DNA of 64,000 nt from Acidobacteriaceae bacterium (GTDB taxonomy: Bacteria; Acidobacteriota; Terriglobia; Bryobacterales; Bryobacteraceae): assembly GCA_019240405.1 (NCBI GenBank), contig JAFAYL010000013.1, forward strand, positions 248,001-312,000. The letters are read 5' to 3'. Position 1 is the first letter of the stretch, and each line of letters opens with the position of its first letter. A model generated the notes under the pieces. That model searched no databases and had not been told where the DNA came from. It was given only the letters and a program-made list of their open reading frames with translations. Shown piece by piece: positions 21,261-26,184 of the stretch. Position numbers and translations under genes: made by a program.

Positions 21261-21998
21261 TTAGGAAGCTGGACACCCGGGCTTTCGTTGAACCCACCGC
21301 CAACCCGAACCGTCGAACGCGAGAATATCGATTGGGGGTGCCGTTGTCTCGGGAGATTCCTTGATCTCCAGATCAATTAACCGCGTTATCAGACTAATCG
21401 CACCGTTGTCGCTGCGAACGGAAGGAAATCGCCCCCCTAAATATTCATCGATCGCCTTCCGTTTCCCGAGAAAAATAAAATCATATCGGCCTGGAACAGC
21501 CGATGAATAGGTCCGCCGATCGCTCTTGATCCGCGGCTTTGAAACATTTCCGTTTGTGCGGTACCACTCCACGCTGACCGAGAGCAAGTTATCTTCGAGG
21601 CCAATAAATGCCGCTTCGAGGATAAGCCCTTTGCGCGCACTGCTCTCGACCCGGCCTTGCGCGGCAATAGCTTGGGGAAGAAATTGCCGCATCTTGTCAC
21701 GAAATTGCTCGATCGCGAATTGTACTGTCGGACTGCTGCGACCCACTTCCGCGCCGATGCTTGCCACTTGCTGGTTGTTTGCATAGGTGAGTCCGGAGGC
21801 CACAAACAGGAGTTGTCCGGCAGGCACGATCTTGCATACCGAACCCTCATACATTTCGCCCGTCTCGCGATAACTGCGCCGGCTGTCGGCTCCGATATAG
21901 AGCGTTTTCGCGCTGCGTAAGATGACGATACTCGTTCCGTACGCCGGGACGACGCAGGCCAGGATAAATGTGACGGGAATCAATCGCCGTGTGAACAA
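21261..21998 (-). CDS. Exported proteasome-like Ntn hydrolase (predicted)
   Basis: A TTG start at 21998 gives an N-terminal signal peptide (FTRRLIPVTFILACVVPAYG) with an Ala-x-Gly cleavage site. The first mature residue would be T22, followed by SIVILRSAKTLYIGADSRRS. This matches the start of proteasome beta subunits: the threonine as residue 1, the ADSR aspartate exactly at +17, and a KI motif (VCKIVPAG) placing the lysine at +35, close to the usual 33. The remaining sequence (FVASGL, QFAIEQFRDKM) fits the Ntn fold. The protein would act as an autoprocessed or signal-peptidase-activated hydrolase in the periplasm. It is the last gene of the phoH-to-BON operon, 5 bp after the BON gene. The substrate is unknown; ordinary HslV or Anbu proteins are cytoplasmic. 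Confidence 0.6.
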   Translation of the reverse strand: MFTRRLIPVTFILACVVPAYGTSIVILRSAKTLYIGADSRRSYRETGEMYEGSVCKIVPAGQLLFVASGLTYANNQQVASIGAEVGRSSPTVQFAIEQFRDKMRQFLPQAIAAQGRVESSARKGLILEAAFIGLEDNLLSVSVEWYRTNGNVSKPRIKSDRRTYSSAVPGRYDFIFLGKRKAIDEYLGGRFPSVRSDNGAISLITRLIDLEIKESPETTAPPIDILAFDGSGWRWVQRKPGCPAS

Positions 21999-22003
21999 TA
22001 GCT

Positions 22004-22303
22004 CTACTTAGGCGGGCCAACGATTAGCTCGTTATCTACTTCCTTGACACCCTTCACTTTTTTCGCGAGTTTGGTGGCGCGATTTTTGCCCTTTTCTGTA
22101 TCCACACGACCTTTGATCGTGACGACGCCATCCTTCACCGTTACGTCGAACGCGCCGCCTTTAACATCCTGATCAGTCGCCAACCGCATTCGAACCTGAT
22201 CGAAAATCCGGTCGTCGGAAGTGGCCACCTTCTGTTGGCCTGTGAATCCGGCCTGCGCAACCGTGGCGGCAAAGAACAGGGCAAAGATAAAACAACGCTT
22301 CAT
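22004..22303 (-). CDS. Secreted BON-domain protein
   Basis: A signal peptide (MKRCFIFALFFAATVAQA) is followed by one BON domain, shown by VRMRLATDQDVKGGAFDVTVKDGVVTIKG and the terminal KKVKGVKEVDNELIV. BON domains bind phospholipid or stabilise envelope complexes in the periplasm. The ATG at 22303 overlaps the era stop codon as ATGA, so the two are translationally coupled; the ORF track start ten codons upstream would lie inside era. Confidence 0.85.
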   Translation of the reverse strand: MKRCFIFALFFAATVAQAGFTGQQKVATSDDRIFDQVRMRLATDQDVKGGAFDVTVKDGVVTIKGRVDTEKGKNRATKLAKKVKGVKEVDNELIVGPPK

Positions 22304-23214
22304 GTACTCTCTGAGCCTATCATCGAGCGCCAATCGACAGAATTGAGGAATCGAGGATCTTCACGCCAGTGCGGCTTAACCTTGACAAACACGGATAGGA
22401 ACACCTTATTTCCGAGCAGGACTTCCAATTGCTCGCGCGCTTCCGAGCCGATTTTCTTTAGCATTTGGCCCTTATTGCCGATGAGTATCGTTTTTTGGCC
22501 CGGCCGCTCAACGTGAATCGTAGCCGCAATCGTTATCAACTTGGGGCTCTCTTGCCATTCGTCGATTAGAACCGCGGCCGCATGTGGAACCTCATCACGG
22601 ATCGCGTGCAGAATGCGCTCGCGGATGATCTCTGCTGCCAAGAACCGCAACGGCTGATCGGTCAAGTAGTCCTCGGGAAACAAAGCGGGACCTTTGGGCA
22701 GGTATGACTCCATGACTCGCCTGAGATCGTCCAGCCCATCACGCGTTCTCGCCGATACCGGCACAGCATCCGCAAATGGAAACAATTCCATATACCGCTG
22801 AATGAGCGGCAGCAAAAGCCGTTTGTCTTGAACCCGGTCGATCTTATTCGGGACGAGCAGACCTTTTGCTGCTCGTGGTATCACGTCAACGGCTTCCTCG
22901 TCCTCCGGAGTCAAGGGTCGCCCGGCATCAATCACGTAGAGAATCAGATCGGGCTGTCCGAGCGCGTCTCGCACCACGTCCATCATCCGTTTGTTGAACA
23001 GCGTGTCCGATTTATGAATGCCCGGCGTATCAACAAAAACGATTTGAGCGTTCGGCGTTGTTAGTACGCCCCGAATGGTTGTGCGAGTCGTTTGAGCTTG
23101 ATGCGCAGTGATCGCAAGCTTCTGGCCCACCAGAGCATTCAGCAGAGTCGATTTACCGGTGTTTGGCCGGCCTGCAATCGAGACGAATCCAGCTCGGTGC
23201 GGGGTTTCTGTCAC
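22300..23214 (-). CDS. era: GTPase Era
   Basis: The protein is a ribosome-assembly GTPase that binds the 3' end of 16S rRNA. The GTPase motifs are present: GRPNTGKST (G1), a T-rich switch I (TTRTTIRG), DTPGIH (G3) and NKID (G4). The C-terminal KH domain has the GNKGQMLKKIGSEAR motif. At 304 residues it is full length. The GTG start overlaps the corC stop as GTGA, and its own stop overlaps the BON gene start, so it is embedded in a tightly coupled operon phoH-ybeY-corC-era, a common bacterial arrangement. Confidence 0.95.
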   Translation of the reverse strand: MTETPHRAGFVSIAGRPNTGKSTLLNALVGQKLAITAHQAQTTRTTIRGVLTTPNAQIVFVDTPGIHKSDTLFNKRMMDVVRDALGQPDLILYVIDAGRPLTPEDEEAVDVIPRAAKGLLVPNKIDRVQDKRLLLPLIQRYMELFPFADAVPVSARTRDGLDDLRRVMESYLPKGPALFPEDYLTDQPLRFLAAEIIRERILHAIRDEVPHAAAVLIDEWQESPKLITIAATIHVERPGQKTILIGNKGQMLKKIGSEAREQLEVLLGNKVFLSVFVKVKPHWREDPRFLNSVDWRSMIGSEST

Positions 23215-24485
23215 GAATTCGCAGCAACCGGCGAAAGAGTGCCGACTCGCGAGATGCGCACCTGCTCGACTCGGCGTTCATTCCCGGCGAGCACCTGCAC
23301 GCGAATTCCCCCGCGTTCTACCGTCTCGCCGACCTGCGGCACGTGACCGACCCATTCAGCGACCAAACCGCCTAGAGTGGTCGATTCAGTATCGCCCTCC
23401 GGACGGAAATTGAGAAGATCCTGCAACCGGTCAAGGTCTAGGCTTCCGGGCGCTACGAAGACATGTTCGGACTCCTGATGCACATCGCGATCGGGCTCGT
23501 GCTCATCGCGAATCTCGCCAAGGATTTCTTCGACCAGATCTTCCATAGTGGCGACTCCGGCCGTGTTTCCGTACTCATCCACCGCGATGACAATATGTGA
23601 GCCGTGGGTTTGCATATCGCGCAAGAGATCACTGACAGGCTTGGTTTCCGGGACCAGCTCGACAGGCCGTATCAAGTCCTTGAGTACCCTGCTTTGTCGA
23701 TCTTCCGGGTCGAGCTCGAACATGTCGCGCACGTGAACAAAACCAATTACGTTGTCGATTGTGCCCTCGTATACGGGTATCCGCGAGTACTGTTCGTGAA
23801 TGACAAGCTGCCGGAGATCTTCAAGCGATTTATCCGCCGAAATGGCCACAATGTTGGGCCGCGGAGTCATTACTTCACGCACACTCTTATCCCCGAATGC
23901 AACCACGGAATGGATCAGCTTCCGGTCTTCTTCTTCGAGGATCCCCTCTTCAGCGCCCGCGGTAATAAGGGCTTCGATGTGCTCGACCGAATCCGTCGCG
24001 GCCGTTTCGCCTGCTACTGCGTTGTCCAAATCCACTAAAGACTGGAACATGCGCAAAAGCGCAGTGAGTGGCGACGCGCAGACAGCCAGGAGCTTAACGG
24101 CAGGCAGTAAGCGCAACATCCACGCACCGGTCGTCCGTCTATAGAGAAAAATCGGGATCAGGTATGTGGTGACCAGCATCACGAGAAACGATAAGCCAAC
24201 CGCTTCAAGTATGCTCTGCCAATGGGGAACCCCTGGCCGGACCAGCGCGCAGAAATAAAACACGCCGGTCAACGGAAGCGACACATGCTTAACGAGAGAA
24301 AAGGTCAAAGAGCCGCGCTCGACTTCAAGCCCGATTTTTTCCGCCAGGCTCTCCCGAAAATATTGGAGCGATGGAACCTCGCGTTTAATCAGGCGCAGAG
24401 ACTCCAGATAGAGCAACTGCACGAAAGACACAAAGCCGAGCAGGCAAGTGAAGAAGAGCGCGAGTGCAAGGCAAAAAAGACTCAT
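23211..24485 (-). CDS. Hemolysin C/CorC-family (CNNM, DUF21) transporter
   Basis: An integral membrane protein with a DUF21 membrane domain in the first 190 residues (about four helices, beginning SLFCLALALFFTCLLGF). Two CBS domains follow (REVMTPRPNIVAIS; LVPETKPVSDLLRDMQ), with a C-terminal CorC/HlyC transporter-associated domain (GLVAEWVGHVPQVGETVE). The family is linked to Mg2+/Co2+ efflux or homeostasis. The ATG at 24485 overlaps the ybeY stop as ATGA, so this start is chosen over the ORF-track start 22 codons upstream. Confidence 0.9.
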   Translation of the reverse strand: MSLFCLALALFFTCLLGFVSFVQLLYLESLRLIKREVPSLQYFRESLAEKIGLEVERGSLTFSLVKHVSLPLTGVFYFCALVRPGVPHWQSILEAVGLSFLVMLVTTYLIPIFLYRRTTGAWMLRLLPAVKLLAVCASPLTALLRMFQSLVDLDNAVAGETAATDSVEHIEALITAGAEEGILEEEDRKLIHSVVAFGDKSVREVMTPRPNIVAISADKSLEDLRQLVIHEQYSRIPVYEGTIDNVIGFVHVRDMFELDPEDRQSRVLKDLIRPVELVPETKPVSDLLRDMQTHGSHIVIAVDEYGNTAGVATMEDLVEEILGEIRDEHEPDRDVHQESEHVFVAPGSLDLDRLQDLLNFRPEGDTESTTLGGLVAEWVGHVPQVGETVERGGIRVQVLAGNERRVEQVRISRVGTLSPVAANS

Positions 24486-24967
24486 TGCAGTAATGTCGAG
24501 CCTGACGCTCTCATGATGAGCGTGGCTGGCAAGTGGAATTTGGATCTCCATCTCCGCTCTGCACGAGCCATTGCCCCCCGGTCGCGCGCGTGATCCATGC
24601 CGATCAAATGGAGAACGCCATGTAGCATGAGTATCCGAACCTCATCAATTCGCGAATGCCCGTTCTCCATTGCTTGCGCTTCCGCCCTGTCAACCGAGAT
24701 TGCAATTTCACCGAGCGTGCTCCCGTCTCGGGCTGGAAACGACAGAACGTCAGTCGGACAATCTTTCGCGAGAAACATGCGGTTTAAATTCTGGAGTTCA
24801 CGGTCGCGCGTGATCAAACAGGTGAAAGCGCGGCCTGAGGTAACCTGACATGCCAACGTGCGGGCAAACGCTGCAACCGCCTGCTTTTCATGTTGTGAAA
24901 ATCTGCGCTCGGGAGGAAAGGCCCGAAAAAGCACCGTTCCGTCACCTTCAGGAGGATCGGAAGACAT
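24482..24967 (-). CDS. ybeY: Endoribonuclease YbeY
   Basis: A single-strand-specific metallo-endoribonuclease involved in 16S rRNA 3' maturation and ribosome quality control. The zinc-binding signature is complete: HGVLHLIGMDH. The length of 161 residues is typical. It begins 9 bp after the phoH stop and overlaps the corC start by four bases. Placement directly after phoH is the usual bacterial gene order and supports the call. Confidence 0.95.
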   Translation of the reverse strand: MSSDPPEGDGTVLFRAFPPERRFSQHEKQAVAAFARTLACQVTSGRAFTCLITRDRELQNLNRMFLAKDCPTDVLSFPARDGSTLGEIAISVDRAEAQAMENGHSRIDEVRILMLHGVLHLIGMDHARDRGAMARAERRWRSKFHLPATLIMRASGSTLLQ

Positions 24968-24976
24968 GTTTTACTT

Positions 24977-26038
24977 CTATGCGGCTGGGGGAAACTCCGG
25001 AATATCTACTGTTGTATTGGGGGAAGGCTCCGCAGGCGTTTCCTGCGCAGGATCGGTGCCGAGTTTGAGCGCAAGCTGCCGTCCTGCTCCAATCATTTCG
25101 TTGTAACGGTCATACGCTTTAACGATTCGTTGGACCAGAGAGTGACGCACCACATCGCGCTCATCGAAATTGACGAATGCGATTCCTTCAACGCCCCTCA
25201 ATACCTCAGCCGCATTCAGTAGGCCGCTCTTCTTTCCTGGCGGCAGGTCAATTTGGGTTTGATCGCCCGTCACTACCATTTTCGAATTAAAGCCTTGCCG
25301 GGTGAGCATCATCTTCATTTGCTCGATACTGGTGTTCTGCGCTTCATCGAGAATAATAAAACAATCGTTGAGCGTACGTCCGCGCATAAAAGCGAGCGGG
25401 GCGATTTCAATCACATTGCGCTCGAGCAGTTTTTCCACACGCTCGGCGTCAATCATGTCGAATAGCGCGTCATACAGAGGGCGGAGATAGGGATCAACTT
25501 TCTCCTGTAGCGTGCCGGGCAAAAATCCAAGATGTTCGCCTGCTTCAACGGCTGGTCGGGTCAGTATGATCCGGCTCACGCGTTTGTTCAGGTGCGCAGA
25601 AACGGCCATCGCAACCGCAAGGTAAGTTTTTCCTGTTCCTGCCGGTCCAATCCCAAAGGTTAGATCCTGGTTTTCGATAGCATCGACATAGCGCCTCTGA
25701 TTCACGGTTTTGGGCGCTAGCACTTTCTTGCCAAAACTGCGGGATTTTCCACTCTCAACCAACCGGCGGAGCGATACGTTCGGGTCGCTCGTAACGACGC
25801 GCATGTAACTGTTCAGGTCGCCGTTATTGAAGACATGGCCTTCTTTCACGAGGCTGACATAGTCTTCGAGAATGCGCTCGGCTCGCCGCACCTGCATTTC
25901 CTCGCCTTCGAGCTCAAGCGAATCACCGTCCATAAGACGGGTGCGCAAAGACAACTCGGCCTCGAGTAAACGAATATTCTCGTCGCGAGTGCCAAACAAA
26001 GACTCGATTCCGCGAGAGATCTGAACGGAAGATTTCAT
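24977..26038 (-). CDS. phoH: PhoH-like ATPase
   Basis: A cytoplasmic P-loop ATPase of the PhoH/YbeZ family, thought to work with YbeY in RNA processing. An N-terminal KH-like region precedes the ATPase core, with Walker A GPAGTGKT, Walker B FIILDEAQN and the family block TGDQTQIDLP. The ORF track starts at a TTG (26041), with an ATG at the next codon (26038), which is preferred. It is the first gene of the operon that runs through era to the Ntn hydrolase. A possible promoter lies about 150 bp upstream. Confidence 0.93.
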   Translation of the reverse strand: MKSSVQISRGIESLFGTRDENIRLLEAELSLRTRLMDGDSLELEGEEMQVRRAERILEDYVSLVKEGHVFNNGDLNSYMRVVTSDPNVSLRRLVESGKSRSFGKKVLAPKTVNQRRYVDAIENQDLTFGIGPAGTGKTYLAVAMAVSAHLNKRVSRIILTRPAVEAGEHLGFLPGTLQEKVDPYLRPLYDALFDMIDAERVEKLLERNVIEIAPLAFMRGRTLNDCFIILDEAQNTSIEQMKMMLTRQGFNSKMVVTGDQTQIDLPPGKKSGLLNAAEVLRGVEGIAFVNFDERDVVRHSLVQRIVKAYDRYNEMIGAGRQLALKLGTDPAQETPAEPSPNTTVDIPEFPPAA

Positions 26039-26184
26039 CAATAGAGGAATGGTGAAGCGCTCAATACGGCGAGGTGGCCGGGCAAACAGGCACTGCCAAT
26101 CTCAGAAAGCTCAGGGATAGAAGAACTTAAGAGCGGGGCCGGTTGAACCCGCTGGCGCGGACGCCGGAAGCTCATTCGTTTCTA

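Follow-up and report, generated by a model that had tools for sequence, protein, structure and literature searches.

An acidobacterial family of putatively exported proteasome-like hydrolases with two predicted modes of exposing the catalytic threonine

The window, a 64,000 nt stretch of an Acidobacteriaceae genome, carries on its minus strand a gene that sequence comparison assigns to a hitherto unnamed family of proteasome-like enzymes with export signals. The fold, homology, active site and export signal, and the position of the cleavage site relative to the nucleophile, were computed across this family. At family level, the existence of an exported proteasome-like hydrolase with two modes of exposing Thr1 is well supported. 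For the window protein itself, the preferred reading (probability about 0.7) is an exported proteasome-like N-terminal nucleophile (Ntn) hydrolase in which loss of the leader would leave Thr22 as residue 1, and which would be active outside the cytoplasm with a Cys34–Cys221 disulfide (numbered from Thr22).

The 245-aa ORF described in the initial annotation is present at 21261–21998 (minus strand). It begins with TTG, ahead of which there is a weak ribosome-binding site; an in-frame TAA at 22010–22008 closes the frame upstream, leaving few alternative starts. The features of the gene and its neighbours are given below, with Thr22 counted as 1 in the family numbering (T1, D17 and so on).

21261..21998, minus strand: precursor (245 aa, TTG start) of the putative secreted proteasome-like Ntn hydrolase; a relative (L002) is 60% identical
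21936..21998, minus strand: predicted signal peptide, residues 1–21, MFTRRLIPVTFILACVVPAYG; from the sequence, and from 47 members with a signal-peptide-like region N-terminal to T1
21933..21935, minus strand: Thr22 (T1), nucleophile of the predicted mature protein; aligned with Thr1 of HslV, BPH and 20S beta subunits in profile searches; Thr, Ser or Ala (48, 2 and 1) in 51 relatives
21885..21887, minus strand: Asp38 (D17), catalytic triad; 51/51 relatives
21831..21836, minus strand: Cys55–Lys56 (C34–K35); Lys in 51/51, Cys in 48/51; K35 corresponds to proteasome Lys33, and C34 is a possible disulfide partner
21792..21794, minus strand: Gly69 (G48), corresponding to oxyanion-hole Gly47; 47/51 relatives
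21273..21296, minus strand: C-terminal signature, Trp235 (W214) to Cys242 (C221); Trp in 42/51, Cys in 47/51
21264..21935, minus strand: mature domain, residues 22–245, with a predicted proteasome-type fold (AlphaFold2 pLDDT 89.7, pTM 0.89; Foldseek against the PDB)
22004..22303, minus strand: upstream neighbour, a small exported BON-domain protein (Pfam BON, 6.3e-17), within a longer span of 22004–22333; its start is probably the ATG at 22303, which overlaps the stop codon of era
22300..23214, minus strand: era, in the same-strand cluster
23211..24551, minus strand: gene for a CBS-domain membrane protein, named from reading the sequence
24482..24967, minus strand: ybeY, named from reading the sequence
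24977..26041, minus strand: phoH-like gene, named from reading the sequence

Searches of Pfam, NCBIfam and the PDB (phmmer) with the window protein alone returned nothing of use. The first search of 60 related genomes gave matches in four, one of them the window itself; in their matched parts, the other three sequences were 60, 25 and 40% identical. Since T1, D17 and the Cys-Lys pair are kept in all three, a profile was built and iterated, which yielded about 50 relatives, nearly all from Acidobacteriota; sampling covered Acidobacteriota genomes and one IMG/VR contig. The family is patchy within the phylum: among the sampled genomes it occurs in 42/349 of the window's class and in 9/162 and 11/193 of two other classes. 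Scanning the genome contigs with the weak C-terminal pattern gave only three loci, all already known, and tblastn against plasmids and phages found no relatives. The IMG/VR contig (IMGVR_UViG_3300044827_000006), a predicted viral sequence, carries a member with a signal peptide and the site VVS/TT (L036:4806-5693, plus strand; a slash marks a putative cut here and below), among phage-like genes encoding a repressor, NinG-type nucleases and a Mom-like protein; this member is unmatched in the phage collection. At L033/L035 (contig 113 of G555) the two halves of a member match in different frames, suggesting a mid-gene frameshift, and this may be a pseudogene or an assembly error.

The initial annotation had pointed to Thr at position 1, Asp at 17 and Lys near 35, and these are kept across the 51 aligned relatives, many of which are only about 20% identical. 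Gly157 is present in 49/51; the window protein, in addition, reads Ser47–Gly48. To judge from this conservation, the combination of T1, D17, K35 and G48 in the window protein is not chance. A proteasome homologue group has been defined by Thr1/Ser1, Asp17, Lys33 and Gly47 (Fuchs et al., 2021; PMC8665760). Thr or Ser occupies the aligned position 1 in 50 of the 51 members and would be the mature N-terminus on prediction; the equivalents of Asp17 and Lys33 are in register with HslV, and the equivalent of the oxyanion-hole Gly47 is also present, including in the window protein. The two sequences with Ser at position 1, L070 and L077 (PEIG/S and LEGG/S), both carry a propeptide of the kind described below, and Ser at this position is what an N-terminal nucleophile family allows. 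In one locus (L056:1486-2145, minus strand), Ala is found at the T1 position and Thr at position 2 (SCYG/ATIVV), which would fit a displaced cleavage site or a copy that has lost activity.

The mature window sequence was modelled with AlphaFold2 together with 12 aligned relatives, giving a confident model. Comparison of this model with the PDB by Foldseek gives 205 matches at E≤0.001, with E down to 8.7e-8, and the best 50 of the 205 are all 20S proteasome subunits or Anbu. The proteasome-like Ntn fold that the initial annotation had expected of the mature protein is thus what the prediction gives. A propeptide-bearing member, L012, modelled from its own alignment (pLDDT 88.9), has the same fold and 440 Foldseek matches at E≤0.001, with 20S subunits among the matches listed. 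TM-scores of 0.44–0.62 (query-normalised) indicate a shared core and a divergent periphery, and both models contain the beta-sheet core with two helix pairs, H1–H4, that proteasome homologues share (PMC8665760).

Sequence profiles lead to the same family. A profile of 13 members matches HslV at E 0.006 and BPH at 0.014; with 46 members HslV is the best match (E 1.5e-5), followed by BPH and 20S beta subunits. Nearly all of the known proteasome-family matches align from position 1 of the larger profile, which places T1 in register with the known nucleophile. The Pfam Proteasome model (PF00227) gives no match to the window protein at E≤10, so that its curated cut-off is not reached, and matches 8/46 relatives at E≤0.1, the best at 1e-4. 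NCBIfam gives one weak proteasome match among family members, and the PHROG 'peptidase HslV family' matches four. The window protein also lacks a match to PF02275, the choloylglycine hydrolase model; its nucleophile is Thr rather than Cys1.

The leader, MFTRRLIPVTFILACVVPAYG, runs from two Arg residues through a hydrophobic stretch to AYG, after which comes Thr22. The export signal proposed at the outset therefore holds up, as a signal-peptide-like leader that is also found in 47 relatives, where a charged start and a hydrophobic stretch lie ahead of T1. The Tat motif pattern has no match among the family leaders. A signal peptide is absent from L029 (which starts M/T) and L030 (MTSLLSG/T), and the leaders of L007 and L014 are short or unclear. 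L029 (L029:1489-2148, plus strand) looks cytoplasmic and is in frame with an upstream ORF with a kinase-like end (GGFGEAWLGEDV), with a stop between them.

A second feature is associated with these leaders. C34 and C221 are both present in every aligned member that has a signal peptide. Both are missing from the signal-less L029 and L030 and from L059, in which the N-terminus is unclear, and C221 is missing from L014; the exception is L007, which keeps the two residues without a signal peptide. This pattern is a separate indication of export and fits a predicted Cys34–Cys221 disulfide formed outside the cytoplasm. It also bears on the idea of a peptidase of HslV or Anbu type that stays in the cytoplasm and has a hydrophobic N-terminus by chance. 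This idea could draw on HslV being the best sequence match and on the signal-less L029 and L030, but is barely credible given the ordinary HslV (L020) already encoded in the genome, the 47 relatives with signal-peptide-like N-termini, and the invariant Cys pair that is lost in some signal-less relatives.

How T1 becomes the N-terminus differs among members, which we sorted into A-type (32 members) and B-type (15 members). In the A-type, with which the window protein is counted, T1 directly follows the end of the signal peptide, usually at an AxA-like site. Clean examples are ARA/T (L027), AEA/T (L008), VSA/T (L009), ATA/T (L011), AFA/T (L050), VWA/T (L058), SHA/T (L028) and LSA/T (L013). In the family as a whole, L003, L010, L054 and L056 are not compatible with a cut immediately ahead of T1. 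Among the 47 members with signal peptides, position −1 holds Ala 23 times, Gly 20 times, Gln twice, and Ser and Leu once each; Ala precedes T1 in 23/32 A-type members against a local Ala rate of 16% (binomial probability about 5e-12 if relatedness is ignored). A signal-peptidase site directly ahead of the nucleophile is thus supported as a recurring feature of the family sequences.

Direct exposure is not universal, as fifteen relatives use a propeptide ending in Gly. In these B-type members a signal-peptidase site is followed by a propeptide of about 4 to 15 residues and then by Thr or Ser, as in ARA/QLEGG/S, SGA/ELHTKSTTG/T and ASA/QIKTGTG/T, and Gly ends the propeptide in 15/15. Proteasome beta subunits as a rule carry Gly just ahead of Thr1 where they cut themselves, and by analogy the B-type members probably process themselves once exported. 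On a quick tree, one supported branch holds 11 of the 15 B-type members and the others lie dispersed over the tree; at least four switches between A and B are required, so that the two modes have probably been interchanged more than once.

Cleavage directly ahead of the nucleophile, as put forward in the initial annotation, is supported as a property of the family. In the window protein AYG/T satisfies the −3/−1 rule; for this particular leader the score is weak. With an approximate form of the von Heijne (1986) weight matrix, AYG/TS scores −2.3, VPA/YG −3.0 and ILA/C −6.3, none of which is strong. In L002, the 60% identical relative, LHA/T has Ala at −1 and scores 4.0, and the cut favoured by the matrix lies three residues ahead of T1.

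The weak score of AYG/T and the similar score of VPA/YG mean that an earlier cut, by two residues, with self-processing at the Gly/Thr bond may apply. Activation in the window protein would then take two steps, signal peptidase cutting after VPA (residue 19) and the enzyme itself removing Tyr-Gly. The Gly at −1 in the window protein, L073 and L074, and the Gly that precedes T1 or S1 throughout the B-type, speak for this course, which we nevertheless regard as rather unlikely: in the closest relative, L002, the residue at −1 is Ala, the Ala found in most A-type members suits signal peptidase and not the Gly/Thr rule, and the AYG site itself conforms to what signal peptidase is expected to accept at −3 and −1. 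Thr22 would be the first residue whether the cut falls after Gly21 or after VPA with self-removal of Tyr-Gly.

The weak score could also be taken to mean that the N-terminal segment is retained and that the product is a membrane-anchored, inactive protein with a proteasome fold. Inactive proteasome-fold subunits have a precedent in the 20S alpha subunits, but D17 and K35 never vary in the family and Thr/Ser at position 1 and G48 hardly do, as would be expected only under selection for catalysis, which makes retention highly improbable. The initial annotation had also raised ILAC as a lipobox. The hydrophobic stretch of the leader does end in ILAC, and signal peptidase II would cut before Cys15, leaving Thr22 seven residues inside the protein and not as nucleophile. 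This was rejected, and a lipoprotein is extremely unlikely, because the standard pattern is matched by 5/47 relatives but not by the window protein, which has Arg among the six residues preceding the Cys, the signal peptide of L002 contains no Cys, and T1 with D17 and K35 would lose any role.

The preferred reading, direct exposure of an exported enzyme, may be set out as follows. The signal peptide would carry the precursor across the inner membrane, and its removal, for which signal peptidase I cutting after Ala-Tyr-Gly21 is the most likely agent, would make Thr22 the first residue. Free Thr1 would join Asp17, Lys35 and the oxyanion hole at Gly48 in the catalytic centre of an extracytoplasmic amide-bond hydrolase, and the Cys34–Cys221 disulfide would stabilize the exported enzyme. 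The precursor would be inactive in the cell because its nucleophile is held in a peptide bond before export. In the B-type sister branch, a short Gly-ending propeptide would be kept after export and activation finished by the enzyme itself, as in proteasome beta subunits. We infer cleavage, the disulfide, activity and a location in the periplasm or beyond from the computed features of the family.

The genomic setting says less about function. The minus strand carries phoH, ybeY, the CBS gene, era, the BON gene and the window ORF, which overlap one another or stand a short distance apart, and the window ORF begins 5 bp past the BON gene stop; the era/ybeY neighbourhood noted initially is therefore a real same-strand cluster. 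The BON gene follows era in 14/14 loci of the genus, and the Ntn gene lies inside this cluster in two genomes only, that of the window and G013. In G013 (L100:519-4109, minus strand) a gene for an S41/PDZ (tricorn-like) peptidase stands between the BON gene and the Ntn gene, which overlaps it by 4 bp, and a gene for an AhpC/TSA-like protein of thioredoxin fold follows on the other side. A neighbour survey across the family, by inspection, revealed no conserved partner, the neighbours being variable. With occurrence in two genomes and differing neighbours elsewhere, the link to era and ybeY shows where the gene landed and carries no information on its role. A link to defence was rejected, PADLOC giving weak single matches only. 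Two further proteins of the window genome (L021 and L022) match the proteasome family above the Pfam cut-off; L022 reads M/TYCLGIATEEGLVMASDS and is perhaps a cytoplasmic Anbu- or WPH-like protein.

Comparison with known systems sets the family apart. HslV has the proteasome fold and, like the window protein, Thr1, D17, a Lys at the K33 position and a Gly at the G47 position. HslV, however, acts in the cytoplasm together with the ATPase HslU, whereas the window protein carries an export signal, exceeds HslV by about 50 residues and is encoded next to BON, era, CBS, ybeY and phoH genes rather than hslU; the conserved C34 and C221 and the C-terminal W...C motif are also features of the window family and not of HslV. 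Proteasome 20S beta subunits share the fold and active site with the whole family, and the Gly-ending propeptide before Thr1 with the B-type; unlike them, the window protein is below the PF00227 cut-off, has no adjoining alpha partner and is predicted to be exported. BPH, Anbu and the 22 homologues of Fuchs et al. (2021; PMC8665760) resemble the family in standing alone, in Thr1/Ser1, D17, K33 and G47, and in having no known ATPase partner. The text of that study mentions no signal peptides, secretion, periplasm or Acidobacteria, and reports propeptides in proteasome beta subunits and HslV and in no other homologue; overlap of the present family with one of its 22 clusters is possible. A secreted proteasome-like family is not described in Pfam, NCBIfam, the text of PMC8665760 or a wider literature search.

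Choloylglycine hydrolases and penicillin V acylases, like the A-type, have the signal-peptidase site immediately ahead of the N-terminal residue that acts as nucleophile, and in Gram-negative penicillin V acylases exposure of the nucleophile by signal peptidase is known. They differ from the window family in belonging to another Ntn family, with a Cys nucleophile and about 320 aa, and no sequence similarity was found. Both choloylglycine hydrolases (PF02275) found in the window's class have such a site directly before the catalytic Cys, IDA/C (L098) and AWA/C (L099), and the signal-peptidase route thus appears to exist in another Ntn family. The route of activation that the initial annotation had called new may be so for the proteasome family, for which no description was found, but not for Ntn enzymes as a whole.

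To our knowledge, proteasome relatives in the literature are all treated as intracellular, usually tied to an ATPase or chaperone. What a proteasome-type hydrolase could do without ATP is a question prompted by this large exported family, whose active site is intact. A broader and tentative proposal is that these proteins are a distinct proteasome branch that has left the cytoplasm and become, in Acidobacteriota, an ATP-independent, possibly ring-shaped extracytoplasmic Thr protease, with export-coupled activation and two modes of exposing Thr1. Export would then act as a natural safety catch, there being no nucleophile before it, and signal-peptide removal would be a third way to Thr1, in addition to autolysis and removal of Met. 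The division into A- and B-types, in turn, opens the question of how an autolytic propeptide and a signal-peptidase site swap in evolution.
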